Below, piece by piece: positions 1 through 20,782 of a stretch of DNA of 24,032 nt. Made by a program: the position numbers and the translations under genes. The stretch spans positions 1-24,032 of the forward strand of contig NW_003152147.1 in the NCBI RefSeq assembly GCF_000003605.2, in the 5' to 3' direction. The notes beneath the pieces were generated by a model, which was not told where the DNA came from, did no database searches, and was given only the letters and a program-made list of their open reading frames with translations. Source of the stretch: Saccoglossus kowalevskii (Eukaryota > Hemichordata > Enteropneusta > Harrimaniidae). The number at the start of each line of letters is the position of its first letter. Position 1 is the first letter of the stretch.

Positions 1-31
1 CCTTAGAAAAACCAGCGGTTGACACTTTTTT
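1..31 (+). pseudogene. 5S-derived segment, copy 0 (3' tail only)
   Basis: The window opens inside a 5S-like core: CCTTAGAAAAACCAGCGGTT, then GACAC and six T. Only the part equivalent to the last ~25 nucleotides is present; the rest lies left of the window. Confidence 0.75.
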
Positions 32-669
32 GAGTTTTTGCCGTCTGCACCTATTTGGTCCATGCTGTTAAAACAGCGTGCAAAGTTCTCCAAAGCGTTT
101 CCAAAGTTGCTAGATTTGTTTGTTTATTTGACCTAAGTTGTTGTTATATCGAACCATGCAGTTGTAAAGTATGAAAAATGACTAAAATTCATTTGAAACC
201 TTCTATGTTAGCAGACTGTCATATGAGCCGGCCGTAAAATGAACAAACACATATTGAAAATGTTAAAAGCGATTGAAAAGTTGGTGGATGTGCGTTTATA
301 TTCCCTCTAAGTCATTTCATGTCGAACCCCGCAGTTAAATTTAGAACAAAATTTTGTAAAAGTCAAAAACAGCTATTTATGTTGGCACATTGTACCACTA
401 CCCAAGCGCAAAGTGATTAACAAAGTGCTTACAAAGTTGTGAAAAGCTTGTGCAAAGTTGGTAGATTTGCATGGAAATGTTACCTATTCTGTTACATTAC
501 CGAGTCCAGTTGTTAAAAGTTCGCGAAAGTGAATGAATATGTTAGTAAAGGCTCTTTGAATATCGCAGTGGCCCTCGAAGGATGTATCATTTTTAAACAT
601 TTCCATCAATTACATGGCCACCAATAACAATAATTTTTAAACGACCCTGATAAATGAGTGGTCAGGTGA

Positions 670-760
670 ACGACCAATAATAGAAGTAAAGATCGATCGG
701 TCGTGGTTAGTACTTGCATGGGAGACAACCTTAGAAAACCAGCGGGTTGACACTTTTTTT
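670..760 (+). pseudogene. 5S-derived segment, copy 1
   Basis: Complete core with intact GGTTAGTACTTGCATGGGAG and T7. Private changes are AACGACC at the start, GATCGATCGG in the box A region and CCAGCGGGTTG near the end. Confidence 0.8.
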
Positions 761-1397
761 GAGTTTTTGCCGTCTGCACCTATTTGGTCCATGCTGTTAA
801 AACAGCGTGCAAAGTTCTCCAAAGCGTTTCCAAAGTTGCTAGATTTGATTGTTTATTTGACCTAAGTTGTTGTTATATCGAACCATGCAGTTGTAAAGTA
901 TGAAAAATGCCTAAATTCATTTGAAACCTTCCATGTTAGCAGACTGTCATATGAGCCGGCCGTAAAATGAACAACACATACTGAAAATGTTAAAGCGATT
1001 GAAAAGTTGGTGGATTTGCGTTTATATCCCCCTAAGTCATTTCATATAGCATCCCCGCAGTTAAATTAGAGCAATTTATGTAAAAGTCAAAAACAGCTAT
1101 TTATGTTGGCACATTGTACCACTACCCAAGCGCAATAGTGATTAACAAAGTGCTTACAAAGTTGTGAAAAAGCTTGTGCAAAGTTGGTAGATTTGCATAG
1201 AAAATGTTACCTATTCTGTTACATTATCGAGTCCAGTTGTTAAAAGTTTCGCGAAAGTGAATGAATATGTTATAAAAGGCTCTTTGAATATCGCAGTGGC
1301 CCTCGAAGGATGTAGAATTTTTAAACATTTCCATCAATTACATGGCCGCCAATAACAATAATTTTTCAACGATCCTGATAGATGAGTGGTCAGGTGA

Positions 1398-1488
1398 TCG
1401 AACCAATAATAGAAGTAAAGATCAATCGATCGTGGTTAGTACTTGCATGGGAGACAACCAGAGATTACCAGCGGTTGACACTTTTTTT
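1398..1488 (+). pseudogene. 5S-derived segment, copy 2
   Basis: Core with box C GCATGGGAGACAACC and T7. There is an extra A in TCGAACC, and CAGAGATTACCAGCGG replaces the usual CTGAGAAAACCAGCGG. Upstream it has TTTTTCAACGATCC, shared with the copies at 2126 and 10356. Confidence 0.8.
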
Positions 1489-2125
1489 GAGTTTTTGCCG
1501 TCTGCACTATTTTGTCCAAGCTGTTAAAACAGCGTGCAAAGTTCTCCAAAGCGTTTCCAAAGTTGCTAGATTTGTTTGTTTATTTGATCTAAGTTGTTGT
1601 TATATCGAACCATGCTGTTGTAAAGTATGAAAAATGACTAAAATTCATTTGAAACCTTCCATGTTAGCAGACTGTCATATGAGCCGGCCGTAAAATGAAC
1701 AAACACATACTGAAAATGTTAAAAGCGATTGAAAAGTTGGTGGATTTGCGTTTATATTCCCCCTAAGTCATTCCATATAGAACCCCGCAGTTAAATTTAG
1801 AACAAAATTATGTAAAAGTCAAAAACAGCTATATATGTTGGCACATTGTACCACTACCCAAGCGCAAAGTGATTAACAAAGTGCTTACAAAGTTGTGAAA
1901 AGCTTGTGCAAAGTTGGTAGATTTGCATAGAAATGTTACCTATTCTGTTACATTATCGAGTCCAGTTGTTAAAAGTTCGCGAAAGTGAATGAATATGTTA
2001 TAAAAGGCTCTTTGAATATCGCAGTGGCCCTCGAAGGATGTAGAATTTTTAAACATTTCCATCAATTACATGGCCGCCAATAACAATAATTTTTCAACGA
2101 TCCTGATAGATGAGTGGTCAGGTTA

Positions 2126-2213
2126 TCGACCAATAATAGAAGTAAAGATCAATCGGTCGTGGTTAGCACTTGCATGGGAAAACCTGAGAAAACCAGTGGT
2201 TGACACTTTTTTT
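2126..2213 (+). pseudogene. 5S-derived segment, copy 3 (3 bp lost in box C)
   Basis: GGGAAAACCTG replaces GGGAGACAACCTG and GGTTAGCACTT replaces GGTTAGTACTT. The same pair of changes recurs at 10356 and 12536, so these three cores share a recent ancestor although they are 8-10 kb apart. Confidence 0.8.
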
Positions 2214-2850
2214 GAGTTTTTGCCGTCTGCACCTATTTTGTCCAAGCTGTTAAAACAGCGTGCAAAGTTCTCCAAAGCGTTTCCAAATTTGCTAGATTTG
2301 TTTGTTTATTTGACCTAAGTTGTTGTTATATCGAACCATGCTGTTGTAAAGTATGAAAAATGACTAAAATTCATTTGAAACCTTCCATGTTAGCAGACTG
2401 TCATATGAGCCGGCCGTAAAATGAACAAACACATACTGAAAATGTTAAAAGCGATTGAAAAGTTGGTGGATTTGCGTTTATATTCCCCCTAAGTCATTCC
2501 ATATAGAACCCCGCAGTTAAATTTAGAACAAAATTATGTAAAAGTCAAAAACAGCTATTTATGTTGGCACATTGTACCCTACCCAAGCGCAAAGTGATTA
2601 ACAAAGTGCTTACAAAGTTGTGAAAAGCTTGTGCAAAGTTGGTAGATTTGCATAGAAATGTTACCTATTCTGTTACATTATCGAGTCCAGTTGTTAAAAG
2701 TTCGCGAAAGTGAATGAATATGTTATAAAAGGCACTTTGAATATCCCAGTGGCCCTCGAAGGATGTAGAATTTTTAAACATTTCCATCAATTACATGGCC
2801 GACAATAACAATAATTTTTAAACGACCCTGATGGATGAGTGGTCAGGTGA

Positions 2851-2940
2851 TCGACCAATAATAGAAGTAAAGATCAATCGGTCGTGGTTGGTACTTGCAT
2901 GGGAGACAACCTGAGAAAACCAGCGATTGACACTTTTTTT
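2851..2940 (+). pseudogene. 5S-derived segment, copy 4
   Basis: Near-consensus subfamily I core ending in T7. Private changes are GGTTGGTACTT and CCAGCGATTGACAC. It is preceded by CCTGATGGATGAG. Confidence 0.82.
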
Positions 2941-3573
2941 GAGTTTTTGCCTCTGCACCTATTTGGTCCATGCTGTTAAAACAGCGTGCAAAGTTCTCCA
3001 AAGCGTTTCCAAAGTTGCTAGATTTGTTTGTTTATTTTACCTAAGTTGTTGTTATATCGAACCATGCAGTTATAAAGTATGAAAAATGACTAAAATTCAT
3101 TTGAAACCTTCCATGTTAGCAGACTGTCATATGAGCCGGCCGGAAAATGAACAAACACATACTGAAAATGTTAAAAGCGATTGAAAAGTTGGTGAATTTG
3201 CGTTTATATTCCCCCTAAGTCATTTCATGTAGAACCCCGCAGTTAAATTTAGAACAAAATTATGTAAAAGTCAAAAACAGCTATTTATGTTGGCACATTG
3301 TACCCAAGCGCAAAGTGATTAACAAAGTGCTTACAAAGTTGTGAAAAGCTGTGCAAAGTTGGTAGATTTGCATGGAGATGTTTACCTATTCTGTTACATT
3401 ATCGAGTCCAGTTGTTAAAAGTTCGCGAAAGGTGAATGAATATGTTATAAAAGGCCCTTTGAATATCGCAGTGGCCCATCGAAAGATGTAGATTTTTTAA
3501 GCATTTCCATCAATTACATGGCCGCCAATAACAATAATTTTTAAACGATCCTGATAGATGAGTGGTCAGGTTA

Positions 3574-3664
3574 TCGACCAATAAAAGAAGTAAAGATCAA
3601 TCGGTCGTGGTTAGTGCTTGCATGGGGAGACAGCCTGAGAAAACCAGCGGTTGACACTTTTTTT
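3574..3664 (+). pseudogene. 5S-derived segment, copy 5
   Basis: Core with ATAAAAGAAG, GTGCTTGCATGGGGAGACAG (one extra G in box C) and T7. GTGCTTGCATGG is shared with the copy at 11081, and the two surrounding units share the GGTGAATTTG variant in subrepeat B. Confidence 0.8.
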
Positions 3665-4303
3665 GAGTTTTTGCCGTCTGCACCTATTTTTGTCCAAGCT
3701 GTTAAAACAGCATGCAAAGTTCTCCAAAGCGTTTCCAAAGTTGCTAGATTTGTTTGTTTATTTGACCTAAGTTGTTGTTATATCGAACCATGCAGTTGTA
3801 AAGTATGAAAAATGACTTAAATTCATTTGAAACCTTCCATGTTAGCAGACTGTCATATGAGCCGGCCGTAAAATGAACAAACACATACTGAAAATGTTAA
3901 AAGCGATTGAAAAGTTGGTGAATTTGCGTTTATATTCCCCCTAAGTCATTTCATATAGAACCCCGCAGTTAAATTTAGAACAAAATTATGTAAAAGTCAA
4001 AAACAGCTATTTATGTTGGCACATTGTACCACTACCCAAGCGCAAAGTGATTAACAAAGTGCTTACAAAGTTGTGAAAAGCTTGTGCAAAGTTGGTAGAT
4101 TTGCATGGAAATGTTACCTATTCTGTTACATTATCGAGTCCAGTTGTTAAAAGTTCGCGAAAGTGAATGAATATGTTATAAAAGGCCCTTTGAATATCGC
4201 AGTGGCCCTCGAATGATGTAGAATTTTTAAACATTTCCATCAATTACATGGCCGCCAATAACAATAATTTTTAAACGACCCTGATAGATGAGTGGTCAGG
4301 TGA

Positions 4304-4393
4304 TCGACCAATAATAGAAGTAAAGATCAATCGGTCGTGGTTAGTACTTGCATGGGAGACAACCTGAGAAAACCAGCGGTTGACACTTTTTTT
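4304..4393 (+). pseudogene. 5S-derived segment, copy 6
   Basis: Consensus subfamily I core, no private change seen, T7. The unit that follows has a 7 bp deletion in subrepeat B (TAGAAGTTAAATTT, near 4686) that recurs after the copy at 13262. Confidence 0.85.
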
Positions 4394-5024
4394 GAGTTTT
4401 TGTCGTCTGCACCTATTTTGTCCAAGCTGTTAAAACAGCGTGCAAAGTTCTCCAAAGCGTTTCCAAAGTTACTAGATTTGTTTGTTTATTTGACCTAAGT
4501 TGTTGATATATCGAACCATGCAGTTATAAAGTATGAAAAATGACTACAATTCATTTGAAACCTTCCATGTTAGCAGACTGTCATATGAGCCGGACGTAAA
4601 ATGAACAAACACATACTGAAAATGTTAAAAGCGATTGAAAAGTTGGTGGATTTGCGTTTATATTCCCCCTAAGTCATTTCATATAGAAGTTAAATTTAGA
4701 ACAAAATTATGTAAAAGTCAAAAACAGCTATTTATGTTGGCACATTGTACCTCTACCCAAGCGCAAAGTGATTAACAAAGTGCTTACAAAGTTGTGAAAA
4801 GCTTGTGCAAAGTTGGTAGATTTGCATGGAAATGTTACCTATTCTGTTACATTATCGAGTCCAGTTGTTAAAAGTTCGCGAATGTGAATGAATATGTTAT
4901 AAAAGGCCCTTTAAATATCGCAGTGGCCCTCGAAGGATGTAGAATTTTTAAACATTTCCATCAATTACATGGCCGCCAATAACAATAATTTTTAATCGAC
5001 CCTGATAGATGAGTGGTCAGGTGA

Positions 5025-5114
5025 TCGACCAATAATAGAAGTAAAGATCAATCGGTCGTGGTTAGTATTTGCATGGGAGACAACCTGAGAAAACCAGCGG
5101 TTGACACTTTTTTT
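5025..5114 (+). pseudogene. 5S-derived segment, copy 7
   Basis: Consensus core except GTTAGTATTTGC. The same change is found in the copy at 13983. T7 follows. Confidence 0.85.
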
Positions 5115-5550
5115 GAGTTTTTGCCGTCTGCACCTATTTTGTCCAAGCTGTTAAAACAGCGTGCAAAGTTCTCCAAAGCGTTTCCAAAGTTGCTAGATTT
5201 GTTTGTTTATTTGACCTAAGTTGTTGTTATATCGAACCATGCAGTTGTAAAGTATGAAAAATGACTAAAATTCATTTGAAACCTTCCATGTTAGCAGACT
5301 GTCATATGAGCCGGCCGTAAAATGAACAAACACATACTGAAAATGTTAAAAGCGATTGAAAAGTTGGTGGATTTGCGTTTATATTCCCCCTAAGTCATTT
5401 CATATAGAACCCCGCAGTTAAATTTAGAACAAAATTATGTAAAAGTCAAAAACAACTATTTATGTTGGCACATTGTACCACTACCCATGCCAAAGTGATT
5501 AACAAAGTGGTTACAAAGTTGTGAAAAGCTTGTGCAAAGTTGGTAGATTT

Positions 5551-5870
5551 ACATAGAAATGTTACCTATTCTGTTACATTATCGAGTCCAGTTGTTAAAA
5601 GTTTGCGAAAGTGAATGACTATGTCATAAAAGGCCGTTTGAATATCGTAGTGGCCCTCGAAGGATGTAGAATTTTTAAACATTTCCATAAATTAATGGCC
5701 GCCAATAACGTTAATTTTTAAACGAACCCTTATAGATGAGTGGTCAGTGATCGACCGATAATAGAAGTAAAGATCATCGGTCGTGTTAGTACTTGCATGG
5801 GAGACACCTTAAAAAACCAGCGGTTGACCCATTTTTTGAGTTTTGCCGTCTGCACCTATTTGGTCCAAGC
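5551..5870 (+). repeat. subfamily II-like island in subfamily I
   Basis: Marks of subfamily II appear together: GATTTACATAG, ATGTCATAAAAGGCCGTTTG, ATATCGTAGTGG, CATAAATTAATGG, GACCGATAATAG and TATTTGGTCCAAGCTG. On both sides the unit is typical subfamily I (GCGTTTCC from about 5899). Confidence 0.7.
5751..5837 (+). pseudogene. 5S-derived segment, copy 8 (degraded)
   Basis: Several single-base losses: GATCATCGG, CGTGTTAGT and GAGACACCTT. GACCGATAATAG is a subfamily II mark. The T-run is six long after ACCCA. The whole neighbourhood, 5.55-5.87 kb, looks like subfamily II inside the subfamily I block. Confidence 0.75.
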
Positions 5871-6472
5871 TGTAAAACAGCGTGCAAAGTTCTCCAAAGC
5901 GTTTCCAAAGTTGCTAGATTTGTTTGTTTAATTCACTAAGTTGTTGTTATATCAAACCATGCAGTTTTAAAGTATGAAAAATGACTAAAATTCATTTGAA
6001 ACCTTCCATGTTAGCAGACTGTCATATGAGCCGGCCGTAAAATGAACAAACACATACTGAAAATGTTAAAAGCGATTGAAAAGTTGATGGATTTGCGTTT
6101 ATATTCCCCCTAAGTCATTTCATGTAGAACCCCGCAGTTAAATTTAGAACAAAATTATGTAAAAGTCAAAAACAGCTCTTTATGTTGGCACATTGTACCA
6201 CTACCCAAGCGCAAAGTGATTAACAAAGTGCTTACAAAGTTGTGAAAAGCTTGTGCAAAGTTGGTAAATTTGCATGGAAATGTTACCTATTCTGTTACAT
6301 TATCGAGTCCAGTTGTTAAAAGTTCGCGAAAGTGAATGAATATGTTATAAAAGGCCCTTTGAATATCGCAGTGGCCCTCGAATGATGTAGAATTTTTAAA
6401 CATTTCCATCAATTACATGGCCGCCAATAACAATAATTTTTAAACGACCCTGATAGATGAGTGGTCAGGTGA

Positions 6473-6562
6473 TCGACCAATAATAGAAGTAAAGATCAAT
6501 CGGTCGTGGTTAGTACTTGCATGGGAGACAACCTGAGAAATCCAGCGGTTGACACTTTTTTT
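6473..6562 (+). pseudogene. 5S-derived segment, copy 9
   Basis: Consensus core with CTGAGAAATCCAGCGG and T7. The next copy, at 7201, has the same change, so these two adjacent monomers are near-identical recent duplicates. Confidence 0.85.
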
Positions 6563-7215
6563 GAGTTTTTGTCGTCTGCACCTATTTTGTCCAAGCTGTT
6601 AAAACAGCGTGCAAAGTTCTCCAAAGCGTTTCCAAAGTTACTAGATTTGTTTGTTTATTTGACCTAAGTTGTTGATATATCGAACCATGCAGTTATAAAG
6701 TATGAAAAATGACTAAAATTCATTTGAAACCTTCCATGTTAGCAGACTGTCATATGAGCCGGCCGTAAAAAGAACAAACACATACTGAAAATGTTAAAAG
6801 CGATTGAAAAGTTGGTGGATTTGCGTTTATATTCCCCCTAAGTCATTTCATGTAGAACCCCGCAGTTAAATTTAGAACAAAATTATGTAAAAGTCAAAAA
6901 CAGCTATTTATGTTGGCACATTGTACCACTACCCAAGCGCAAAGTGATTAACAAAGTGCTTACAAAGTTGTGAAAAGCTTGTGCAAAGTTGGTAGATTTG
7001 CATGGAAATGTTACCTATTCTGTTACATTATCGAGTCCAGTTGTTAAAAGTTCGCGAAAGTGAATGAATATGTTATAAAAGGCCCTTTGAATATCGCAGT
7101 GGCCCTCGAATGATGTAGAATTTTTAAACATTTCCATCAATTACATGGCCGCCAATAACAATAATTTTTAAACGACCCTGATAGATGAGTGGTCAGGTGA
7201 TCGACCAATAATAGA

Positions 7216-7263
7216 AGTAAAGATCAATCGGTCGTGGTTAGTACTTGCATGGGAGACAACCTG
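7216..7263 (+). promoter_or_regulatory. 5S-type internal control region remnant (box A, IE, box C)
   Basis: If TCGACC at 7201 is aligned with nucleotide 35 of vertebrate 5S rRNA, the three parts of the type 1 Pol III internal promoter fall as follows. Box A is at 7216-7230 (8 of 15 bases agree), the intermediate element at 7233-7238 (5 of 6) and box C at 7246-7263, TGCATGGGAGACAACCTG (15 of 18). Spacing is exactly that of a 5S gene, with no gaps. Counts were made by eye against a remembered 5S sequence. Box C, the main TFIIIA contact, is the best kept and box A the worst. Whether it binds TFIIIA or is transcribed cannot be told from sequence. Confidence 0.65.
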
Positions 7264-7283
7264 AGAAATCCAGCGGTTGACAC

Positions 7284-7290
7284 TTTTTTT
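7284..7290 (+). terminator. Pol III-type T7 terminator after 5S-like core (reference copy)
   Basis: A run of seven T directly follows GTTGACAC, about 90 bp after the start of the recognisable core, where the 3' end of a 5S gene would be. A second run of five T (7294-7298, after GAG) acts as a possible backup. Runs of four or more T on the coding strand terminate RNA polymerase III in animals. The same arrangement occurs in nearly every copy; exceptions are noted under the copies at 9627, 11081 and 21428. Confidence 0.6.
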
Positions 7291-7323
7291 GAGTTTTTGT
7301 CGTCTGCACCTATTTTGTCCAAG

Positions 7324-7497
7324 CTGTTAAAACAGCGTGCAAAGTTCTCCAAAGCGTTTCCAAAGTTGCTAGATTTGTTTGTTTATTTGACCTAAGTTGT
7401 TGTTATATCGAACCATGCAGTTGTAAAGTATGAAAAATGACTAAAATTCATTTGAAACCTTCCATGTTAGCAGACTGTCATATGAGCCGGCCGTAAA
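7324..7497 (+). repeat. subrepeat A of the reference monomer
   Basis: It begins CTGTTAAAACAGCGTGCAAAG. AAAGCGTTTCCAAAGTTGCT and AGATTTGTTTG follow, then CCTAAGTTGTTGTTATATCG and AACCATGCAGTT. Each block has a counterpart in B and C in the same order and near-equal spacing: AAAGC, then AAAGTTG and GATTTG, then CCTAAG or CCTATT, a T/A-rich ATAT or CATTAT, and finally CAGTT. The start was set 27 bp before the AAAGCG anchor because B and C show matching AAC/AAAG-rich leads there. Divergence among A, B and C is large, so the duplication is much older than the array's recent spread. Confidence 0.75.
7327..7338. other. short conserved inverted repeat GCTGT-TAAA-ACAGC
   Basis: About 30 bp after the T-run each monomer has GCTGTTAAAACAGC, a 5 bp stem with a four-base loop (the stem begins just before this span, at 7323). 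In some subfamily II copies (16.99, 17.73 and 23.73 kb) the sequence is CTGTTAACACAGC, which changes only the loop. It could be a weak hairpin or protein site; no function is shown. Confidence 0.4.
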
Positions 7498-7674
7498 ATG
7501 AACAAACACATACTGAAAATGTTAAAAGCGATTGAAAAGTTGGTGGATTTGCGTTTATATTCCCCCTAAGTCATTTCATGTAGAACCCCGCAGTTAAATT
7601 TAGAACAAAATTATGTAAAAGTCAAAAACAGCTATTTATGTTGGCACATTGTACCACTACCCAAGCGCAAAGTG
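7498..7674 (+). repeat. subrepeat B of the reference monomer
   Basis: Diverged relative of A and C. It has AAAAGCGATTGAAAAGTTGG, then TGGATTTGCG, CCCCCTAAGTCATTTCATG, GAACCCCGCAGTTAAATTT and later TATGTTGGCACATTGTACC. The last block resembles ATGTTAGCAGACTGTCATATG of A, so the relationship extends well past the anchor block. The shared GCGATT of A (subfamily II) and B is the site of the A duplication seen near 18.66 kb, which supports the homology. Confidence 0.75.
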
Positions 7675-7850
7675 ATTAACAAAGTGCTTGCAAAGTTGTG
7701 AAAAGCTTGTGCAAAGTTGGTAGATTTGCATGGAAATGTTACCTATTCTGTTACATTATCGAGTCCAGTTGTTAAAAGTTCGCGAAAGTGAATGAATATG
7801 TTATTAAAGGCCCTTTGAATATCGCAGTGGCCCTCGAAGGATGTAGAATT
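7675..7850 (+). repeat. subrepeat C of the reference monomer
   Basis: Third diverged subrepeat: AAAGCTTGTGCAAAGTTGG, TAGATTTGCATGG, then CCTATTCTGTTACATTATCG, GAGTCCAGTTGTTAAAAGTT, CGCGAAAGTGAATGAATATG and TATCGCAGTGGCCCTCG. The stretch from CCTATTCTG to GTGAATGAATATG is among the least changed in the window in both subfamilies. The right boundary is approximate because similarity to A and B fades before the 5S-containing module. Confidence 0.72.
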
Positions 7851-7928
7851 TTTAAACATTTCCATCAATTACATGGCCGCCAATAACAATAATTTTTAAA
7901 CGATCCTGATAGATGAGTGGTCAGGTGA

Positions 7929-8018
7929 TCGACCAACAATAGAAGTAAAGATCAATCGGTCGTGGTTAGTACGTGCATGGGAGACAACCTGAGAAAACCA
8001 GCGGTTGACACTTTTTTT
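7929..8018 (+). pseudogene. 5S-derived segment, copy 11
   Basis: Core with GACCAACAATAG and GTACGTGCATGG as private changes; box C is otherwise intact and followed by T7. Confidence 0.83.
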
Positions 8019-8589
8019 GAGTTTTTGTCGCCTGCACCTATTTTGTCCAAGCTGTTAAAACAGCGTGCAAAGTTCTCCAAAGCGTTTCCAAAGTTGCTAG
8101 ATTTGTTTGTTTATTTGACCTAAGTTGTTGTTATATCGAACCCATGCAGTTATAAAGTATGAAAAATGACTAAAATTCATTTGAAACCTTCCATGTTAGC
8201 AGACTGTTATATGAGCCGGCCGTAAAATGAACAAACACATACTGAAAATGTTAAAAGCGATTGAAAAGTTGGTGGATTTGCGTTTATATTCCCCCTAAGT
8301 CATTTCATGTAGAACCCCGCAGTTAAATTTAGAACAAAATTATGTAAAAGTCAAAAACAGCTATTTATGTTGGCACATTGTACCACTACCCAAGCGCAAA
8401 GTGATTAACAAAGTGCTTACAAAGTTGTGAAAAGCTTGTGCAAAGTTGGTAGATTGCATAGAAATGTTACCTATTCTGTTACATTATCGAGTCCAGTTGT
8501 TAAAAGTTCGCGAAAGTGAATGAATATGTTATAAAAGGCTCTTTGAATATCGCAGTGGCCCTCGAAGGATGTAGAATTTTTAAACATTT

Positions 8590-8830
8590 CCATAAATTAA
8601 ATGGCCGCCAATAACGATAATTGTTAAACGACCCTGATAGATGAGTGGACACGTGATCGACCAATAATGGAAGTAAAGATCAATCGGTCGTGGTTAGTAC
8701 TTGCATGGGAGACAACCTGAGAAAACCAGCGGTGACACTTTTTTGAGTTTTTGCCGTCTGCACCTATTTGGTCCATGCTGTTAAAACAGCGTGCAAAATT
8801 CTCCAAAGCGATTCCATGGTTGCTAAATTT
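8590..8830 (+). repeat. subfamily II-like island, first
   Basis: CATAAATTAAATGGCC, AATAACGATAATTG, AATAATGGAAG, GCGGTGACAC with T6 and GCGATTCCATGG are subfamily II-type states. The upstream C subrepeat (GCATAGAAATG, GTTATAAAAGG) is subfamily I. Confidence 0.65.
8657..8744 (+). pseudogene. 5S-derived segment, copy 12
   Basis: Preceded by GAGTGGACACGTGATCGACC and carrying AATAATGG, a subfamily II mark. CCAGCGGTGACAC leads into T6. It begins the first of the two shortened monomers. Confidence 0.83.
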
Positions 8831-9224
8831 GTTTGTTTATTTAACCTAAGTTGTTGTTATATCGAACCGCTACCCAAGCACAAAGTGATTAACAAAGTGC
8901 TTACAAAGTTGTGAAAAGCTTGTGCAAAGTTGGTAGATTTGCATAGAAATGTTACCTATTCTGTTACATTATCGAGTCCAGTTGTTAAAAGTTCGCGAAA
9001 GTGAATGAATATGTTATTAAAGGCCCTTTGAATATCGCAGTGGCCCTCGAAGGATGTAGAATTTTTAAACATTTCCATAAATTAAATGGCCGCCAATAAC
9101 GATAATTGTTAAACGACCCTGATAGATGAGTGGACACGTGATCGACCAATAATGGAAGTAAAGATCAATCGGTCGTGGTTAGTACTTGGATGGGAGACAA
9201 CCTGAGAAAACCAGCGGTGACACT
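8739..9224 (+). repeat. shortened monomer (485 bp), first of two
   Basis: Normal subrepeat A runs to ATATCGAACC (about 8868) and then continues directly with GCTACCCAAGCACAAAGTGA, which belongs near the end of subrepeat B. About 243 bp are missing: the rest of A and most of B. Both parental ends carry ACC (GAACC in A, GTACCACTACCC in B), so the break fits a short-homology deletion. Confidence 0.85.
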
Positions 9225-9315
9225 TTTTTGAGTTTTTGCCGTCTGCACCTATTTGGTCCATGCTGTTAAAACAGCGTGCAAAGTTCTCCAAAGCGATTCC
9301 ATGGTTGCTAAATTT
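9075..9315 (+). repeat. subfamily II-like island, second
   Basis: Same set of subfamily II-type states as the island one short monomer to the left; it was copied with the shortened unit. Confidence 0.65.
9142..9229 (+). pseudogene. 5S-derived segment, copy 13 (best box C)
   Basis: Same as copy 12 but with CTTGGATGGGAGAC, where nearly all other copies read CTTGCATGGG. From GGTTAG through GGGAGAC this gives 22 consecutive bases identical to vertebrate 5S rRNA as remembered, the longest perfect match in the window. T6 follows. Chance back-mutation, retention of the ancestral base and conversion from a real 5S gene are all possible. Confidence 0.85.
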
Positions 9316-9709
9316 GTTTGTTTATTTAACCTAAGTTGTTGTTATATCGAACCGCTGCCCAAGCACAAAGTGATTAACAAAGTGCTTACAAAGTTGTGAA
9401 AAGCTTGTGCAAAGTTGGTAGATTTGCATAGAAATGTTACCTATTCTGTTACATTATCGAGTCCAGTTGTTAAAAGTTCGCGAAAGTGAATGAATATGTT
9501 ATAAAAGGCCCTTTGAATATCGCAGTGGCCCTCGAAGGATGTAGAATTTTTAAACATTTCCATCAATTACATGGCCGCCAATAACAATAATTTTTAAACG
9601 ATCCTGATAGATGAGTGGTCAGGTTATCGACCAATAATAGAAGTAAAGATCAATCGGTCGTGGTTAGTACTTGCATGGGAGACAACCTGAGAAAACCAGT
9701 GGTTGACAC
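9224..9709 (+). repeat. shortened monomer (485 bp), second of two
   Basis: The same junction (ATATCGAACC to GCTGCCCAAGCAC, about 9353) and the same flanking variants (GCGATTCCATGG, TTAACCTAAG) as the unit before it. The deleted unit was thus duplicated as a whole after the deletion. One base differs at the junction (GCTACCC against GCTGCCC). Confidence 0.85.
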
Positions 9710-9716
9710 TATTTTT
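9627..9716 (+). pseudogene. 5S-derived segment, copy 14 (interrupted T-run)
   Basis: Core intact, but the terminal run reads CTATTTTTG, so the longest T stretch is five. The same change occurs at 11081. Confidence 0.83.
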
Positions 9717-10355
9717 GAGTTTTTGCCTTCTGCACCTATTTTGTCCAAGCTGTTAAAACAGCGTGCAAAGTTCTCCAAAGCGTTTTCCAAAGTTGCTAGA
9801 TTTGTTTGTTTATTTGACCTAAGTTGTTGTTATATCGAACCATGCTGTTGTAAAGTATGAAAAATGACTAAAATTCATTTGAAACCTTCCATGTTAGCAG
9901 ACTGTCATATGAGCCGGCCGTAAAATGAACAAACACATACTGAAAATGTTAAAAGCGATTGAAAAGTTGGTGGATTTGCGTTTATATTCCCCCTAAGTCA
10001 TTCCATATAGAACCCCGCTGTTAAATTTAGAACAAAATTTCGTAAAAGTCAAAAACAGCTATTTATGTTGGCACATTGTACCACTACCCAAGCGCAAAGT
10101 GATTAACAAAGTGCTTACAAAGTTGTGAAAAGCTTGTGCAAAGTTGGTAGATTTGCATAGAAATGTTACCTATTCTGTTACATTATCGAGTCCAGTTGTT
10201 AAAAGTTCGCGAAAGTGAATGAATATGTTATAAAAGGCTCTTTGAATATCGCAGTGGCCCTCGAAGGATGTAGAATTTTTAAACATTTCCATCAATTACA
10301 TGGCCGCCAATAACAATAATTTTTCAACGATCCTGATAGATGAGTGGTCAGGTTA

Positions 10356-10443
10356 TCGACCAATAATAGAAGTAAAGATCAGTCGGTCGTGGTTAGCACT
10401 TGCATGGGAAAACCTGAGAAAACCAGTGGTTGACACTTTTTTT
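10356..10443 (+). pseudogene. 5S-derived segment, copy 15 (3 bp lost in box C)
   Basis: Shares GGTTAGCACTT, GGGAAAACCTG and CCAGTGG with the copy at 2126, and TTTTTCAACGATCC upstream. The private change is GATCAGTCGG. T7 follows. Confidence 0.82.
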
Positions 10444-11080
10444 GAGTTTTTGCCGTCTGCACCTATTTTGTCCAAGCTGTTAAAACAGCGTGCAAAGTTC
10501 TCCAAAGCGTTTCCAAAGTTGCTAGATTTGTTTGTTTATTTGACCTAAGTTGTTGTTATATCGAACCATGCAGTTGTAAAGTATGAAAAATGACTAAAAT
10601 TCATTTGAAACCTTTCATGTTAGCAGACAGTCATATGAGCCGGCCGTAAAATGAACAAACACATACTGAAAATGTTAAAAGTGATTGAAAAGTTGGTGAA
10701 TTTGCGTTTATATTCCCCCAAAGTCATTTCATATAGAACCCCGCAGTTAAATTTAGAATAAAATTATGTAAAAGTCAAAAACAGCTATTTATGTTGGCAC
10801 ATTGTACCACTACCCAAGCGCAAAGTGATTAACGAAGTGCTTACAAAGTTGTGAAAAGCTTGTGCAAAGTTGGTAGATTTGCATGGAAATGTTACCTATT
10901 CTGTTACATTATCGAGTCCAGTTGTTAAATGTTCGCGAAAGTGAATGAATATGTTATAAAAGGCCCTTTGAATATCGCAGCGGCCCTCGAAGGATGTAGA
11001 ATTTTTAAGCATTTCCATCAATTACATGCCCGCCAATAAAAATAATTTTAAACGATCCTGATAGATGAGTGGTCAAGTTA

Positions 11081-11170
11081 TCGACCAATAATAGAAGTAA
11101 AGATCAATCGGTCGTGGTTAGTGCTTGCATGGGAGACAACCTGAGAAAACCAGCAGTTGACACTATTTTT
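11081..11170 (+). pseudogene. 5S-derived segment, copy 16 (interrupted T-run)
   Basis: GTGCTTGCATGGGAGAC and CCAGCAGTTGACAC, then TATTTTTG. Preceded by GTCAAGTTATCGACC. Confidence 0.82.
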
Positions 11171-11766
11171 GAGTTTTTGCCGTCTGCACATATTTTGTCC
11201 AAGCTGTTAAAACAGCGTGCAAAGTTCTCCAAAGCGTTTCCAAAGTTGCTAGATTTGTTTGTTTATTTGACCTAAGTTGTTGTTATATCGAACCATGCAG
11301 TTGTAAAGTATGAAAAATGACTAAAATTCATTTGAAACCTTCCATGTTAGCAGACTGTCATATGAGCCGGCCGTAAAATGAACAAACACATACTGAAAAT
11401 GTTAAAAGCGATTGAAAAGTTGGTGAATTTGCGTTTATATTCCCCCTAAGTCATTTCATATAGAACCCTGCAGTTAAATTTAGAACAAAATTATGTAAAA
11501 GTCAAAAACAGCTATTTATGTTGGCACATTGTACCACTACCCAAGCGCAAAGTGATTAACAAAGTGCTTACAAAGTTGTGAAAAGCTTGTGCAAAGTTGG
11601 TAGATTTGCATAGAAATGTTACCTATTCTGTTACATTATCGAGTCCAGTTGTTAAAAGTTCGCGAAAGTGAATGAATATGTTATAAAAGGCTCTTTGAAT
11701 ATCGCAGTGGCCCTCGAAAGATGTAGAATTTTTAAACATTTCCATCAATTACATGGCCGCCAATAA

Positions 11767-12170
11767 CGATAACGTTTAAACGACCCTGATAGATGAGTGG
11801 TCAGGTGGTCGACCAATAATGGAAGTAAAGGTCAATCGGTTGTGGTTAGTATTTGCATGGGAGACAACCTGAGAAAACCAGCAGGTGACACTTTTTTGAA
11901 TTTTTGCCGTCTGCACCTATTTGGTCCATGCTGTTAAAACAGCGTGCAAAGTTCTCCAAAGCGATTCCAAGGTTGCTAAATTTGTTTGATTATTTGACCT
12001 AAGTTGTTGTTATATCGAACCATGCAGTTATAAAGTATGAAAAATGACTAAAATCCATTTGAAACCTCCCATGTTAGCAGACTGTCAAATGAGCCGGCCG
12101 TAAAATGTACAAATACATCCTAAAAATGTTAAAAGTGATTGAAAAGATGGTGGATTTGCGTGTATATTCC
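11767..12170 (+). repeat. subfamily II-like island, longest
   Basis: AACGATAACG, AATAATGGAAG, GCAGGTGACAC with T6, GCGATTCC, AAAATCCATTTGAAACCTCC, AAATGTACAAATACATCC and GCGTGTATATT are all subfamily II states. Then AAGTCAAAAACAGC and GTAGATTTGCATGG return to subfamily I. The island spans about 400 bp and covers the 5S-like core and subrepeat A. Confidence 0.72.
11809..11897 (+). pseudogene. 5S-derived segment, copy 17 (subfamily II-like)
   Basis: GTGGTCGACC, AATAATGGAAGTAAAGGTC and GCAGGTGACAC before T6 are closer to subfamily II than to the neighbours on either side. It sits in the longest mosaic island (11.77-12.17 kb). Confidence 0.8.
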
Positions 12171-12535
12171 CCCTAAGTCATTTCATATAGAACCCCGCAG
12201 TTAAATTTAGAACAAAATTATGTAAAAGTCAAAAACAGCTAATTATGTTGGCACATTGTACCACTACCCAAGCGCAAAGTGATTAACAAAGTGCTTACAA
12301 AGTTGTGAAAAGCTTGTGCAAAGTTGGTAGATTTGCATGGAAATGTTACCTATTCTGTTACATTATCGAGTCCAGTTGTTAAAAGTTCGCGAAAGTGAAT
12401 GAATATGTTATAAAAGGCCCTTTGAATATCGCAGTGGCCCTCGAAGGATGTAGAATTTTTAAACATTTCCATCAATTACATGGCCGCCAATAACAATAAT
12501 TTTTAAACGATCCTGATAGATGAGTGGTCAGGTTA

Positions 12536-12623
12536 TCGACCAATAATAGAAGTAAAGATCAATCGGTCGTGGTTAGCACTTGCATGGGAAAACCTGAGAA
12601 AACCAGCGGTTGACATTTTTTTT
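12536..12623 (+). pseudogene. 5S-derived segment, copy 18 (3 bp lost in box C)
   Basis: Third copy with GGTTAGCACTT and GGGAAAACCTG. GACATTTTTTTT gives the longest T-run in the window, eight. Confidence 0.82.
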
Positions 12624-13261
12624 GAGTTTTTGCCGTCTGCACCTATTTTGTCCAAGCTGTTAAAACAGCGTGCAAAGTTCTCCAAAGCGTTTCCAAAGTT
12701 GCTAGATTTGTTTGTTTAATTCACCTAAGTTGTTGTTATATCGGACTATGCAGTTATAAAGTATGAAAAATGACTAAAATTCATTTGAAACTTTCCATGT
12801 TAGCAGACTGTCATATGAGCCGGCCGTAAAATGAACAAACACATACTGAAAATGTTAAAAGCGATTGAAAAGTTGGTGGATTTGCGTTTATATTCCCCCT
12901 AAGTCATTTCATGTAGAACCCCGCAGTTAAATTTAGAACAAAATTATGTAAAAGTTAAAAACAGCTATTTATGTTGGCACATTGTACCACTACCCAAGCG
13001 CAAAGTGATTAACAAAGTGCTTACAAAGTTGTGAAAAGCTTGTGCAAAGTTGGTAGATTTGCATGGAAATGTTACCTATTCTGTTACATTATCGAGTCCA
13101 GTTGTTAAAAGTTCGCGAAAGTGAATGAATATGTTATAAAAGGTCCTTTAAATATCGCAGTGGCCCTCGAATGATGTAGAATTTTTAAACATTTCCATCA
13201 ATTACATGGCCGCCAATAACAATAATTTTTAATCGACCCTGATAGATGAGTGGTCAGGTGA

Positions 13262-13351
13262 TCGACCAATAATAGAAGTAAAGATCAATCGGTCGTGGTT
13301 AGTACTTGCATGGGAGACAACCTGAGAAAACCAGCGGTTGACACTTTTTTT
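13262..13351 (+). pseudogene. 5S-derived segment, copy 19
   Basis: Consensus core with T7. The unit that follows has CCGGACG and the 7 bp loss TAGAAGTTAAATTT, as after the copy at 4304. Confidence 0.85.
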
Positions 13352-13982
13352 GAGTTTTTGTCGTCTGCACCTATTTTGTCCAAGCTGTTAAAACAGCGTG
13401 CAAAGTTCTCCAAAGCGTTTCCAAAGTTACTAGATTTGTTTGTTTATTTGACCTAAGTTGTTGATATATCGAACCATGCAGTTATAAAGTATGAAAAATG
13501 ACTAAAATTCATTTGAAACCTTCCATGTTAGCAGACTGTCATATGATCCGGACGTAAAATGAACAAACACATACTGAAAATGTTAAAAGCGATTGAAAAG
13601 TTGGTGGATTTGCGTTTATATTCCCCCTAAGTCATTTCATATAGAAGTTAAATTTAGAACAAAATTATGTAAAAGTCAAAAACAGCTATTTATGTTGGCA
13701 CATTGTACCACTACCCAAGCGCAAAGTGATTAACAAAGTGCTTACAAAGTTGTGAAAAGCTTGTGCAAAGTTGGTAGATTTGCATGGAAATGTTACCTAT
13801 TCTGTTACATTATCGAGTCCAGTTGTTAAAAGTTCGCGAAAGTGAATGAATATGTTATAAAAGGTCCTTTAAATATCGCAGTGGCCCTCGAAGGATGTGG
13901 AATTTTTAAACATTTCCATCAATTACATGGCCGCCAATAACAATAATTTTTAAACGACCCTGATAGATGAGTGGTCACGTGA

Positions 13983-14072
13983 TCGACCAATAATAGAAGT
14001 AAAGATCAATCGGTCGTGGTTAGTATTTGCATGGGAGACAACCTGAGAAAACCAGCGGTTGACACTTTTTTT
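13983..14072 (+). pseudogene. 5S-derived segment, copy 20
   Basis: Consensus apart from GTTAGTATTTGC, matching the copy at 5025 exactly 8958 bp to the left. T7 follows. Confidence 0.85.
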
Positions 14073-14710
14073 GAGTTTTTGTCGTCTGCACCTATTTTGT
14101 CCAAGCTGTTAAAGCAGCGTGCAAAGTTCTCCAAAGCGTTTCCAAAGTTGCTAGATTTGTTTGTTTAATTCACCTAAGTTGTTGATATATCGAACCATGC
14201 AGTTATAAAGTATGAAAAATGACTAAAATTCATTTGAAACCTTCCATGTTAGCAGACTGTCATATGAGCCGGCCGTAAAATGAACAAACACATACTGAAA
14301 ATGTTAAAAGCGATTGAAAAGTTGGTGGATTTGCGTTTATATTCCCCCTAAGTCATTTCATGTAGAACCCCGCAGTTAAATTTAGAACAAAATTATGTAA
14401 AAGTCAAAAACAGCTATTTATGTTGGCACATTGTACCACTACCCAAGCGCAAAGTGATTAACAAAGTGCTTACAAAGTTGTGAAAAGCTTGTGCAAATTT
14501 GGTAGATTTGCATGGAAATGTTACCTATTCTGTTACATTATCGAGTCCAGTTGTTAAAAGTTCGCGAAAGTGAATGAATATGTTATAAAAGGTCCTTTAA
14601 ATATCGCAGTGGCCCTCGAAGGAAGTAGAATTTTTAAACATTTCCATCAATTACATGGCCGCCAATAACAATAATTTTTAAACGACCCTGATAGATGAGT
14701 GGTCAGGTGA

Positions 14711-14800
14711 TCGACCAATAATAGAAGTAAAGATCAATCGGTCGTGGTTAGTACTTGCATGGGAGACAACCTGAGAAAACCAGCGGTTGACACTTTTTTT
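14711..14800 (+). pseudogene. 5S-derived segment, copy 21
   Basis: Consensus subfamily I core with T7; no private change seen. Confidence 0.85.
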
Positions 14801-15438
14801 GAGTTTTTGTCGTCTGCACCTATTTTGTCCAAGCTGTTAAAACAGCGTGCAAAGTTCTCCAAAGCGTTTCCAAAGTTACTAGATTTGTTTGTTTATTTGA
14901 CCTAAGTTGTTGATATATCGAACCATGCAGTTATAAAGTATGAAAAATGACTAAAATTCATTTGAAACCTTCCATGTTAGCAGACTGTCATATGAGCCGG
15001 CCGTAAAATGAACAAACACATACTGAAAATGTTAAAAGCGATTGAAAAGTTGGTGGATTTGCGTTTATATTCCCCCTAAGTCATTTCATGTAGAACCCCG
15101 CAGTTAAATTTAGAACAAAATTATGTAAAAGTCAAAAACAGCTATTTATGTTGGCACATTGTACCACTACCCAAGCGCAAAGTGATTAACAAAGTGCTTA
15201 CAAAGTTGTGAAAAGCTTGTGCAAATTTGGTAGATTTGCATGGAAATGTTACCTATTCTGTTACATTATCGAGTCCAGTTGTTAAAAGTTCGCGAAAGTG
15301 AATGAATATGTTATAAAAGGCCCTTTGAATATCGCAGTGGCCCTCGAATGATGTAGAATTTTTAAACATTTCCATCAATTACATGGCCGCCAATAACAAT
15401 AATTGTTAAACGACCCTGATAGATGAGTGGTCAGGTGA

Positions 15439-15516
15439 TCGACCAATAATAGAAGTAAAGATCAATCGGTCGTGGTTAGTACTTGCATGAGAAAACCAGC
15501 GGTTGACACTTTTTTT
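15439..15516 (+). pseudogene. 5S-derived segment, copy 22 (box C deleted)
   Basis: TTGCATGAGAAAACC replaces TTGCATGGGAGACAACCTGAG..., a 12 bp loss that removes the heart of box C. The deletion probably ran between the two GAG/ATG-like ends by slippage. The T-run is intact. If box C is needed for TFIIIA binding, this core should be inert. Confidence 0.85.
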
Positions 15517-16154
15517 GAGTTTTTGTCGTCTGCACCTATTTTGTCCAAGCTGTTAAAACAGCGTGCAAAGTTCTCCAAAGCGTTTCCAAAGTTACTAGAT
15601 TTGTTTGTTTATTTGACCTAAGTTGTTGATATATCGAACCATGCAGTTATAAAGTATGAAAAATGACTAAAATTCATTTGAAACCTTCCATGTTAGCAGA
15701 CTGTCATATGAGCCGGCCGTAAAATGAACAAACACATACTGAAAATGTTAAAAGCGATTGAAAAGTTGGTGGATTTGCGTTTATATTCCCCCTAAGTCAT
15801 TTCATGTAGAACCCCGCAGTTAAATTTAGAACAAAATTATGTAAAAGTTAAAAACAGCTATTTATGTTGGCACATTGTACCACTACCCAAGCGCAAAGTA
15901 ATTAACAAAGTGCTTACAAAGTTGTGAAAAGCTTGTGCAAAGTTGGTAGATTTGCATGGAAATGTTACCTATTCTGTTACATTATCGAGTCCAGTTGTTA
16001 AAAGTTCGCGAAAGTGAATGAATATGTTATAAAAGGCCCTTTGAATATCGCAGTGGCCCTCGAATGATGTAGAATTTTTAAACATTTCCATCAATTACAT
16101 GGCCGCCAATAACAATAATTGTTAAACGACCCTGATAGATGAGTGGTCAGGTGA

Positions 16155-16233
16155 TCGACCAATAATAGAAGTAAAGATCAATCGGTCGTGGTTAGTACTT
16201 GCATGAGAAAACCAGCGGGTTGACACTTTTTTT
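16155..16233 (+). pseudogene. 5S-derived segment, copy 23 (box C deleted)
   Basis: Same 12 bp loss as the adjacent copy at 15439, so the deleted form was duplicated with its monomer. It has one extra G (AGCGGGTTG). T7 follows. It is the last core of the subfamily I block. Confidence 0.85.
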
Positions 16234-16870
16234 GAGTTTTTGTCGTCTGCACCTATTTTGTCCAAGCTGTTAAAACAGCGTGCAAAGTTCTCCAAAGCGT
16301 TTCCAAAGTTACTAGATTTGTTTGTTTATTTGACCTAAGTTGTTGATATATCGAACCATGCAGTTATAAAGTATGAAAAATGACTGAAATCCATTTGAAA
16401 CCTCTCATGTTAGCAGAATGTCTATGAGCCGGCCGTAAAATGTGCAAATACATCTTAAAAATGTAAAAAGCGATTGAAAAGTTGGTGGATTTGCGTGTAT
16501 ATTCCCCCTATGTCATTTCATATAAAACCCCGCAGTTAAATTTACAACAAAATTATGTAAAACTTTAAAACAGCTATTTATGTTGGCACATTGTACCACT
16601 ACCCAAGGGCAAAGTGATTAACAAAGTGCTTACAAAGTTGTCAAAAGCTTGTGCAAAGTTGGCAGATTTACATGGAAATGTTACCTATTCTGTTACATTA
16701 TCAAATCCAGTTGTTAAAAGTTCGCGAAAGTGAATGAATATGTCATATAAGGCCGTTTGAATATCGTAATGGCTATCAAAGGATGTAGAATTTTTAAACA
16801 TTTCCATACATAAAATTGCTGCTAATTACGATAATTTTTAAATGAACCTGATATATGCGTGGTCAGATGA

Positions 16871-16961
16871 TCGACCGATAATGGAAGTAAAGTTCAATTC
16901 GGGCGTGGGTAGGACATGCATGGGTGACAATCTGAGAAATCCAGCGGGTGACACATTTTTT
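16871..16961 (+). pseudogene. 5S-derived segment, copy 24 (divergent)
   Basis: First full subfamily II core: GACCGATAATGG, but CAATTCGGGCGTGGGTAGG and ACATGCATGGGTGACAATC depart from the other copies inside the normally conserved GGTTAGTACTT. T6 after ACACA. Confidence 0.8.
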
Positions 16962-17603
16962 GAATTTTTTGCAGTCTGCACCTATTTGGTCCAAGCTGTT
17001 AACACAGCGTGCAAAGTTCTCCAAAGCGATTCCAAAGTTGCTAGATTTGTTTGTTTATTTGACCTAAGTTGTTGTTATATCGAACCGTGTAGTTATAAAG
17101 TATGAAAAATGACTAAAATCCATTTGAAACCTCTCATGTTAGCAGAATGTCATATGAGCCGGCCGTAAAATGTGCAAATACATCTTGAAAAATGTTAAAA
17201 GCGATTGAAAAGTGTGTTTATTTGCGTGTATATTCCCTCTAAGTCATTTCATATAGAACCCCGCAGTTAAATTTAGAACAAAATTATGTAAAAGTCTAAA
17301 ACAGCTATTTATGTAGGCACATTGTACCTCTACCCAAGCGCAAAGTGACTAACAAAGTGCTTACAAAGTTGTCAAAATCCCGTGGAAATTTGGCAGATTT
17401 ACATGGAAATGTTATTTATTCTGTTACATTATCGAATCCAGTAGTTAAAAGTTCGTGAAAGTGACTGAATATGTCATAAAAGGCCGTTTGAATATCGTAG
17501 TGGCTATCGAAGGATGTAGAACGTTTAAACATTTCAATACATAAAATGGCTGCCAATTACGATAATTTTTTAAATGACCCTGATAGATGAATGGTAAGAT
17601 TGA

Positions 17604-17695
17604 TCGACCGATAATGGAAGTAAAGTTCAATCGGTTCGTGAGTAGTACTTTGCATGGGTGACAACCTGAGAAATCCAGCTGGTGACACATTTTTT
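17604..17695 (+). pseudogene. 5S-derived segment, copy 25
   Basis: Subfamily II core with small insertions and a substitution (CGGTTCGTGAGTAGTACTTT). GCATGGGTGACAACCTGAG is kept. T6 follows. Confidence 0.8.
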
Positions 17696-18332
17696 GAGTT
17701 TTTGCAGTCTGCACCTATTTGGTCCAAGCTGTTAACACAGCGTGCAAAGTTCTTCAAAGCGATTCCAAAGTTGCTAAATTGTTTGTTTATTTGACCTAAG
17801 TTGTTGTTATATCGAACCCTGCAGTTATAAAGTATGAAAAAATGATAAAATCCATTTGAAACCTCCCATGTTAGCAGAATGTCATATGAACCGGCCGTAA
17901 AATATACAAATACATCCTAAAAATGTTAAATGCGATTGAAAAGTTGGTGGATTTGCGTGTATATTCCCCTTAAGTCATTTCATATAGAACACCGCAGTTA
18001 AATTTAGAACAAAATTATGTAAAAGTCTAAAACAGCTATTTATGTTGGCACATTGTACCACTACCCAAGCGCAAAGTGATTAACAAAGTGCTTACAAAAT
18101 TGTCAAAAGCTCGTGCAAAGTTGGCAGATTTACATGGAAATGTTACCTATTCTGTTACATTATCGAATCCAGTTGTTAAAAGTTCGCGAAAGTGAATGGA
18201 TATGTCATAAAAGGCCGTTTGAATATCGTAGTGGCCCTCGAAGGATGTAGAATTTTTAAACATTTCCATACATAAAATGGCCGCCAATTACGATAATTTT
18301 TAAATGATCCTGATAGATGAGTGGTCAGATGA

Positions 18333-18421
18333 TCGACCGATAATGGAAGTAAAGTTCAATCGGTCGTGGTTAGTACTTGTATGGGTGACAACCTGGGAAA
18401 AGCAGCGGGTGACACTTTTTT
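18333..18421 (+). pseudogene. 5S-derived segment, copy 26
   Basis: One of the cores closest to ordinary 5S: GACCGATAATGG, GTGGTTAGTACTTGTATGGG and CCTGGGAAAAG (CCTGGGAA as in 5S). T6. The unit that follows has the duplicated A subrepeat. Confidence 0.85.
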
Positions 18422-18484
18422 GAGTTTTTGCAGTCTGCACCTATTTGGTCCAAGCTGTTAAAACAGCGTGCAAAGTTCTCCAAA

Positions 18485-18839
18485 GCGATTCCAAAGTTGC
18501 TAGATTTGTTTGTTTATTTGACCTAAGTTGTTGTTATATCGAACCCTGCAGTTATAAAGTATGAAAAATGACTAAAATCCATTTGAAACCTCCCATGTTA
18601 GCAGAATGTCATATGAGCCGACCGTAAAATATACAAATACATCCTAAAAATGTTAAATGCGATTCCAAAGTTGCTAGATTTGTTTTCTTTATTTGACATA
18701 AGTTGTTGTTATATCGAACCCTGCAGTTATAAAGTATGAAAAATGACTAAAATCCATTTGAAACCTCCCATGTTAGCAGAATGTCATATGAACCGGCCGT
18801 AAAATGTGCAAATACATCTTAAAAATGTTAAAAGCGATT
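18485..18839 (+). repeat. tandem duplication of subrepeat A (A-A-B-C monomer)
   Basis: GCGATT occurs at 18485, 18659 and 18834, i.e. 174 and 175 bp apart. The first two are followed by CCAAAGTTGCTAGATTTGTT (subrepeat A); the third is followed by GAAAAGTTGGTGG (subrepeat B). The two A copies differ at a few sites (TTTGTTTATTTGACC against TTTTCTTTATTTGACAT; GAGCCGACCG against GAACCGGCCG). The first A runs straight into the second at GCGATT, which A and B share. This is the product expected of unequal exchange between A and B, and it makes the monomer 901 bp. Confidence 0.88.
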
Positions 18840-19233
18840 GAAAAGTTGGTGGATTTGCGTGTATATTCCCCTATGTCATTTCATATAGAACCCCGCAGTT
18901 AAATTTAGAACAAAATTATGTAAAAGTTTAAAACAGCTATCTATGTTGGCACATTGTACCACCAGCCAAGCGCAAAGTGATTAACATTGTGCTTACAAAG
19001 TTGTCAAAATCTTGTAAAAAGTTGGCAGATTTACATGGAAATGTTACCTATTCTGTTACATTATCGAATCCAGTTGTTAAAAGTTCGCGAAAGTGAATGA
19101 ATATGTCATAAAAGGCCATTTGAATATCGTAGTGGCTATCGAAGGATGTAGAATTTTTAAACATTTCCATACATTAAATGGCCGCCAATTACGATAATTT
19201 TTAAATGACACTGATAGATGAGTGGTCAGATGA

Positions 19234-19322
19234 TCGACCGATAATGGAAGTCAAGTTCAATCGGTTGTGATTAGTACTTGCATGGGAGACAGCCTGATAA
19301 AACCAGCGGGTGACACTTTTTT
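19234..19322 (+). pseudogene. 5S-derived segment, copy 27
   Basis: GACCGATAATGGAAGTCAAG, GTGATTAGTACTTGCATGGG, AGACAGCCTGATAAAACC, GCGGGTGACAC and T6. Confidence 0.83.
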
Positions 19323-19963: not shown

Positions 19964-20052
19964 TCGACCGATAAAAGTAGTAAAGTTCAATCTGACGTGG
20001 TTAGTACTTGCATGGGAGATAACTTGAGAAAACCAGCGGGTGAAATTTTTTT
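19964..20052 (+). pseudogene. 5S-derived segment, copy 28
   Basis: First IIb core: GACCGATAAAAGTAG, CAATCTGACGTGG, GGGAGATAACTTG, then GGGTGAAA and T7. An A-run with ATGACCCTG precedes it. Confidence 0.82.
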
Positions 20053-20693: not shown

Positions 20694-20782
20694 TCGACCG
20701 ATAAAAGAAGTAAAGTTCAATCTGTCGTGATTAGTACTTGCATGGGAAACAACCTGAGAAAACCAGCGGGTGAAATTTTTTT
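20694..20782 (+). pseudogene. 5S-derived segment, copy 29
   Basis: IIb core with GGGAAACAACCTG in box C, GGGTGAAA, T7 and then AAAGAG. The copy at 22161 shares these marks. Confidence 0.83.

Follow-up and report, generated by a model that had tools for sequence, protein, structure and literature searches.

The 24,032 b stretch of DNA analysed here (the window), which is one complete contig (C4221), is a tandem array of a composite satellite with a consensus monomer length of 728 b, and every monomer carries a segment that derives from the 5S rRNA gene of the host itself and has since decayed. The genome has several tandem families with 5S sequence, of which this satellite is one; their monomers measure about 728, 942 and 503 b. 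The internal promoter of the fragment was probably kept while these families diverged, perhaps because Pol III read it, and now seems to be drifting. The parts kept between families are box A, the intermediate element, the start of box C and the T-run; these look like what a type 1 Pol III gene requires, and the parts that make the RNA ribosomal are gone.

The host is most likely an acorn worm of the genus Saccoglossus. Its mitochondrial contig (C4830, 17,037 b), on which cox1 was identified by Pfam and the other genes by their translations, has cox1 on the opposite strand, nad2 ahead of nad1 and nad5 adjacent to cob. Lysine sites read AAA, AGG is absent from cox1 and cob, and the anticodon of tRNA-Lys is TTT. 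For Saccoglossus kowalevskii, PMC3121625 and PMC2697986 describe an inverted cox1, a transposed nad1 or nad2, nad5 beside cob, AAA as Lys, no AGG and the anticodon UUU. ATA is also given as Ile for that species, in agreement with several ATA codons of the contig (as in MPIM-ATA-GGFG, GLTG-ATA-VL and YLH-ATA-GRG) at positions where other animals have isoleucine. On reading this contig, a coral or lancelet host was rejected. Its two ends carry tandem repeats of about 141 b and 191 b (L039, 1-671, and L040, 6271-7037).

A 5S-derived segment in every monomer

The window contains 33 satellite units, a loose search having returned 34 matches, of which that at 3360 was discounted as no unit. The head-to-tail arrangement characteristic of 5S-derived satellite DNA is evident from the 32 complete unit-to-unit intervals, 29 of which measure 716-735 b, while two are shorter (485 b) and one is longer (901 b; Table 1). 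Self-comparison of the consensus body revealed its ~175 b subrepeats (74% identity across 73 b, 82% across 38 b), and a TRF period of 175 at 18482-18857 represents a recent doubling. The proposal that 5S sequence joined a pre-existing 175 bp satellite is not borne out: the body does have such subrepeats, yet 5S and body are already joined in the related families examined. The best 40 of 1203 genome candidates for one ~175 b subrepeat fall on eight contigs, of which seven were seen with composite arrays, the eighth being C4637. Phage and viral origins of the window were also considered and rejected, 6601-8060 being without a match in a phage collection and the 33 b core without an exact match in viral contigs.

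Table 1. Features of the window and of the monomer that contains the reported segment
Feature	Position	Strand	Basis
Satellite array	1..24032	+	33/33 units on one strand, cores from 704 (first) to 23642 (last)
Complete monomer (728 b) containing the reported segment	7173..7900	+	Distances between units, alignment of monomers
5S-derived segment, gene nt 21-106, ungapped	7187..7272	+	Consensus 64/86 identical to host 5S gene
Box A-like part (gene nt 50-64)	7216..7230	+	Consensus 10/15 identical to host gene
Exact 25 nt run, gene nt 67-91 (covers the intermediate element and the beginning of box C)	7233..7257	+	Host gene comparison
T-run at the 5S terminator place, gene position 118-124	7284..7290	+	Window units and register
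Repeat body, diverged ~175 b subrepeats (about 7335-7502, 7503-7672, 7673-7812)	7318..7900	+	Consensus self-comparison
Two short monomer intervals (485 b): 5S unit kept, body partly missing	8691..9683	+	TRF array 8382-9841

The original prediction that a 5S-derived segment lies in every unit, on one strand and without gaps, holds. Scores against the host gene are 58-89 across all 33 units and no higher than 22 among 598 random non-unit stretches of the window. The consensus unit matches the host gene over nt 21-106, so that the homology begins nearer nt 21 than the predicted nt 35; beyond these limits identity is at chance level (4/20 for nt 1-20 and 3/13 for nt 107-119). A blastn comparison of the two aligned 72 nt at 77.8% identity (E = 1e-11), and the local alignment score of 84 was reached by none of 1000 shuffles, the highest of which gave 29. 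The core pattern, at up to three mismatches, has 30 matches in the window where 0 are expected. This core carries the host-type TTGCATGG, at a place where the human 5S gene has TTGGATGG. The match reaches beyond the 20-base core, because with nt 66-90 omitted 40 of 61 positions remain identical to the host gene (binomial p = 3e-11), and 25 matches is the most that any of the other 727 registers attains.

With the box limits assumed to be those of the frog gene (box A, nt 50-64; intermediate element, nt 67-72; box C, nt 80-97), identity between consensus and host gene is lowest in box A (Table 1), rising to 14/15 over nt 65-79 and 15/18 over nt 80-97. The T-run is found at the place where it had been expected. 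All 33 units have at least five consecutive T somewhere in gene positions 110-135, a span wide enough to include another T-run as well (consensus positions 128-132). The unit at 21462 has just four T together in its first T-run. A tRNA-like reading of GAGTGGTCAGGTGATCGACC, which resembles what we take to be the A box of tRNA-Ser/Leu, was discarded: in the alignment this stretch corresponds, without a shift of register, to nt 21-40 of 5S, and ARAGORN detected no tRNA in the window.

Relation to the true 5S genes and to other tandem families

When 7140-7320 was searched with Rfam, the only match was to the 5S model (RF00001), and it lies below threshold (15.5 bits, E = 0.76). A cmscan search of the whole window at E of up to 1 returned nothing, and the maximum in four other loci searched was 25.3 bits, also below the cut-off of 38. 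True 5S genes of the host score 105.3-112.9 bits with the same model in the same assembly; 47 places were scored of 18,217 first-look candidates, and all 47 are above the cut-off. At 15.5 bits against 38, the satellite segment is no 5S rRNA gene. The predicted RNA of the consensus unit folds with a z-score of -1.24 (21 of 200 shuffles being as good), compared with -3.01 for the gene, and closing helix I is absent from its predicted fold.

The true genes lie on C3485, C2212 and C3801 in two kinds of array, with units of about 1139 b and about 1579 b, and the copies read from both kinds are nearly identical in their genes. When the satellite was compared with two stretches of these arrays, significant alignment was restricted to the 72 b gene part; the remaining matches are of at most 15 b with E above 0.9, which indicates that the spacer is not common to both. 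One host 5S gene from the array on C3485 has a TATATA motif near -30, which the satellite consensus lacks at that place.

A search of the assembly (572 Mb in 4830 contigs) yielded nine more stretches of the window family on seven other contigs (C590, C2554, C115, C2204, C1909, C883 and C2320), each in a single orientation; the array on C2320 is preceded by a long run of N (L041, 1-9424), which may be either a gap or a stretch withheld. The core, at up to three mismatches, occurs at 2408 places in the genome, a figure that gives no copy number for the window family because units of the relatives labelled family 2 can be included. An exact pattern excluding the letters usual in the true gene and in the window family has 1682 genome matches, and its reversed control has 0. 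The listing covered the first 100 places, and six loci were read; since these loci include different families, the 1682 matches mix families.

Among the relatives, a ~942 b family has spacings of 943-965 b on C1529 (a stretch found by its body), 944-947 b on C324 (the other later stretch), 945 b on C124, and 914 and 1156 b on C203, and a ~503 b variant occurs in two copies on C6. The ~942 b and ~503 b loci have the same core, the T-run and a related body, and spacer lengths differ between the window consensus and the first family-2 unit. On C3898, an array of the window family ends at an edge and is followed by an inverted, diverged relative that is 66% identical in the body and 86% identical in the 5S part (56 nt). 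The inverted stretch at this junction (L042, 2175 to end; about 283674 onward) is related to the 942 b family, and an exact 57 b direct repeat adjoins its 5S unit.

A separate satellite of 216 b on C111 and C242 consists of nearly whole 5S pseudogenes, and in the 14 units on C111 87-101 of 119 positions are identical to the 5S gene. These nearly full-length pseudogenes (L047 and L048 on C111, L051 on C242) are separated by a short spacer, an arrangement that resembles the frog satellite PcP190.

The promoter part between families and within arrays

Conservation between families was assessed with five representatives. Four of these are units from C1529, C203, C3898 and C6, avoiding those picked by the exact-core search, and the fifth is the window consensus. 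In the comparisons of the window family with its four relatives, nt 51-91, from box A to the middle of box C, are 83-93% identical, the other 5S parts 56-62% and the body 65-69%. The excess of nt 51-91 over the body is found in all four comparisons (Fisher p = 8.6e-5 to 0.026), which are not independent because they all share the window family. The box A-like part (nt 51-65) has a mean identity of 0.85 in these comparisons, and nt 92-97 of box C are poorly kept. When identity to the window family is profiled along the other representatives, the fixed core window takes rank 5 of 703 and the highest-scoring window of the core region rank 2; over all five representatives these ranks are 34 and 2. 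Within the three family-2 representatives alone there is no core excess (core 0.846 versus body 0.856; ranks 410 and 95 of 703). Relative to the gene, the five representatives keep 32-36 of 41 positions over nt 50-90, 3-6 of 20 over nt 1-20 and 3-5 of 13 over nt 107-119. All five have a T-run of at least four at gene position 115-126, the gene itself ending at 119. Such runs occur frequently in AT-rich DNA.

The core served to locate units, so that coreless units would escape, and those of C203 and C6 adjoin units found by the exact core. Because units were spotted in this way and exact-core loci supplied two of the four relatives, a residual selection for a kept core affects these values.

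Within the present arrays the picture is the opposite. The window and the nine stretches together yielded 144 units, and the 125 intervals of 690-760 b were retained. Among these 125 full-size monomers, nucleotide diversity is higher in the core (pi = 0.083) than in the body (0.064; p = 0.01), and variability over the entire 5S-like stretch exceeds that of 85% of windows of equal length. The exact 24-mer core is kept in 36 of the 125 monomers and in 10 of the 33 units of the window. Of these 33 units, 5 have deletions in box C (about 12 b in the units at 15473 and 16189, and 2 b in those at 2160, 10390 and 12570). The present arrays of the window family are without special constraint on the promoter core. 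These small deletions are each common to several units, and the recurrence of the 2 b losses far apart suggests block exchange within the array.

The description of the segment as a Pol III unit is therefore supported as past constraint, with nt 51-91 being the stretch best kept between families, and finds no support in the present arrays, in which the core is the more variable part and box C is partly deleted in some units; the missing TATATA and the weak RNA fold also speak against present use. The older signal and the recent one point in opposite directions, a contrast that is itself testable.

The explanation that we favour, and regard as probable, is that of a 5S-derived composite satellite whose promoter mattered during family divergence. 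A fragment of a 5S gene would have been built into a composite repeat, the ancestor of a superfamily of 5S-bearing tandem repeats, in which the promoter part may still have bound TFIIIA. Pol III could then have made an RNA of ~115-120 nt ending at the T-run, and use of the promoter, or the factors bound to it, may have favoured its retention. The present arrays would spread and be homogenized by unequal exchange, with most units now drifting.

The most serious alternative is a neutral one, in which a 5S pseudogene was caught in a satellite, its promoter never mattered and the conservation of the core between families is an effect of chance, sampling or alignment. The lack of constraint in the present arrays and among family-2 members, the broken box C of several units, the weak fold signal and the residual bias in unit finding are all consistent with such a relic. 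It accounts poorly for nt 51-91 exceeding both the body and the 5S flanks in each of the four window-family comparisons, and for the run of 25 exact matches to the gene, which has a probability of 0.0026 given the overall identity. This neutral history is possible, if somewhat doubtful.

Transcription might also continue today, some copies being read by Pol III from the internal promoter into a small RNA and the arrays gaining a role in chromatin through bound TFIIIA or TFIIIC. The exact cores of 10 of the window units, with T-runs downstream, would allow it, and the 5S-derived frog satellite PcP190 is described as transcribed, although over the whole repeat, in the available text of PMC11675491. 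Present-day constraint is lacking, the upstream TATATA of the host gene is missing and box C is partly lost, and we therefore consider current transcription unlikely. Equally improbable is that these repeats form a superfamily in which a live type 1 Pol III promoter is the selected shared part and the rest of the monomer turns over freely; if true, TFIIIA and TFIIIC would occupy thousands of array promoters, with a short non-rRNA transcript or chromatin marking as the outcome.

Gene conversion from the true 5S arrays could in principle have kept the cores alike in the absence of selection, since true 5S arrays and the 216 b pseudogene arrays coexist in the genome. Inside the kept part, GTTAAG of the gene (nt 51-56) is nevertheless replaced by GTAAAG both in the window consensus and in 14 of the 17 units from relatives, and conversion tracts would need near-identical borders every time, which makes this route very unlikely. 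An ancestral 5S-headed SINE that turned tandem would explain the keeping of boxes A and C and the intermediate element, as in the 5S-derived SINEs of the available text of PMC8010984, but is the least credible origin, given the T-run at the gene terminator and the two matches in long contigs (L046 and L050), which among the six loci read, from 100 of 1682 places listed, lie in clusters of at least two and at least three copies.

Comparison with known 5S-derived repeats

The closest known counterpart of the window satellite is PcP190 of frogs, a satellite with a 5S-like region that is 69.40% similar to the host gene according to the available part of PMC11675491. Both are tandem repeats in which similarity between the 5S-like region and the host gene is about 70% (64/86 over nt 21-106 here), and both, as far as that text describes PcP190, lie on other contigs than the 5S arrays, the rest of the repeat being unlike the 5S spacer. 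They differ in size, the monomers of the window being ~728 bp and those of PcP190, in the same text, ~190 bp with a 120 bp conserved region similar to the transcribed region. The whole ~120 nt gene region that characterizes PcP190-type repeats is not recognizable in the window satellite, both ends of the gene being at chance level (see above); only nt 21-106 can be recognized, the internal promoter contains the best-kept stretch, and families of several sizes occur together.

Other hosts also have 5S rDNA-derived satellites, with a 5S-derived centromeric repeat in the fish Hoplias malabaricus and a satellite on the B chromosome of Plantago lagopus, both compared here by their titles in the reference list of PMC12692304. 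The 5S-derived SINEs PxSE4 and PxSE5, as presented in the accessible portion of PMC8010984, likewise join the A, intermediate and C elements of 5S to other sequence; in contrast to the tandem arrays of the window satellite, they are retroposed and have a body and a 3' tail. The 5S rDNA of Acropora is linked with snRNA genes (PMC8167085, available text) and thus also places 5S in a composite tandem unit. The Acropora units hold U1 and U2 genes in that text, whereas Rfam identified none in the window at E of up to 1, in a search that also misses the decayed 5S. Among the open-licence literature matches listed, no report of a hemichordate satellite of this kind was found.

In the available text of PMC11675491, PcP190 raised a similar question, its gene part being conserved and the rest variable. 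The presence of several 5S-bearing families alongside true genes in one genome permits a direct test of whether a Pol III promoter helps satellites to arise or to persist. Satellites derived from 5S are thus already known; what is new in the present case is that mainly the promoter part is kept, that the monomers are long and composite, and that several families coexist.
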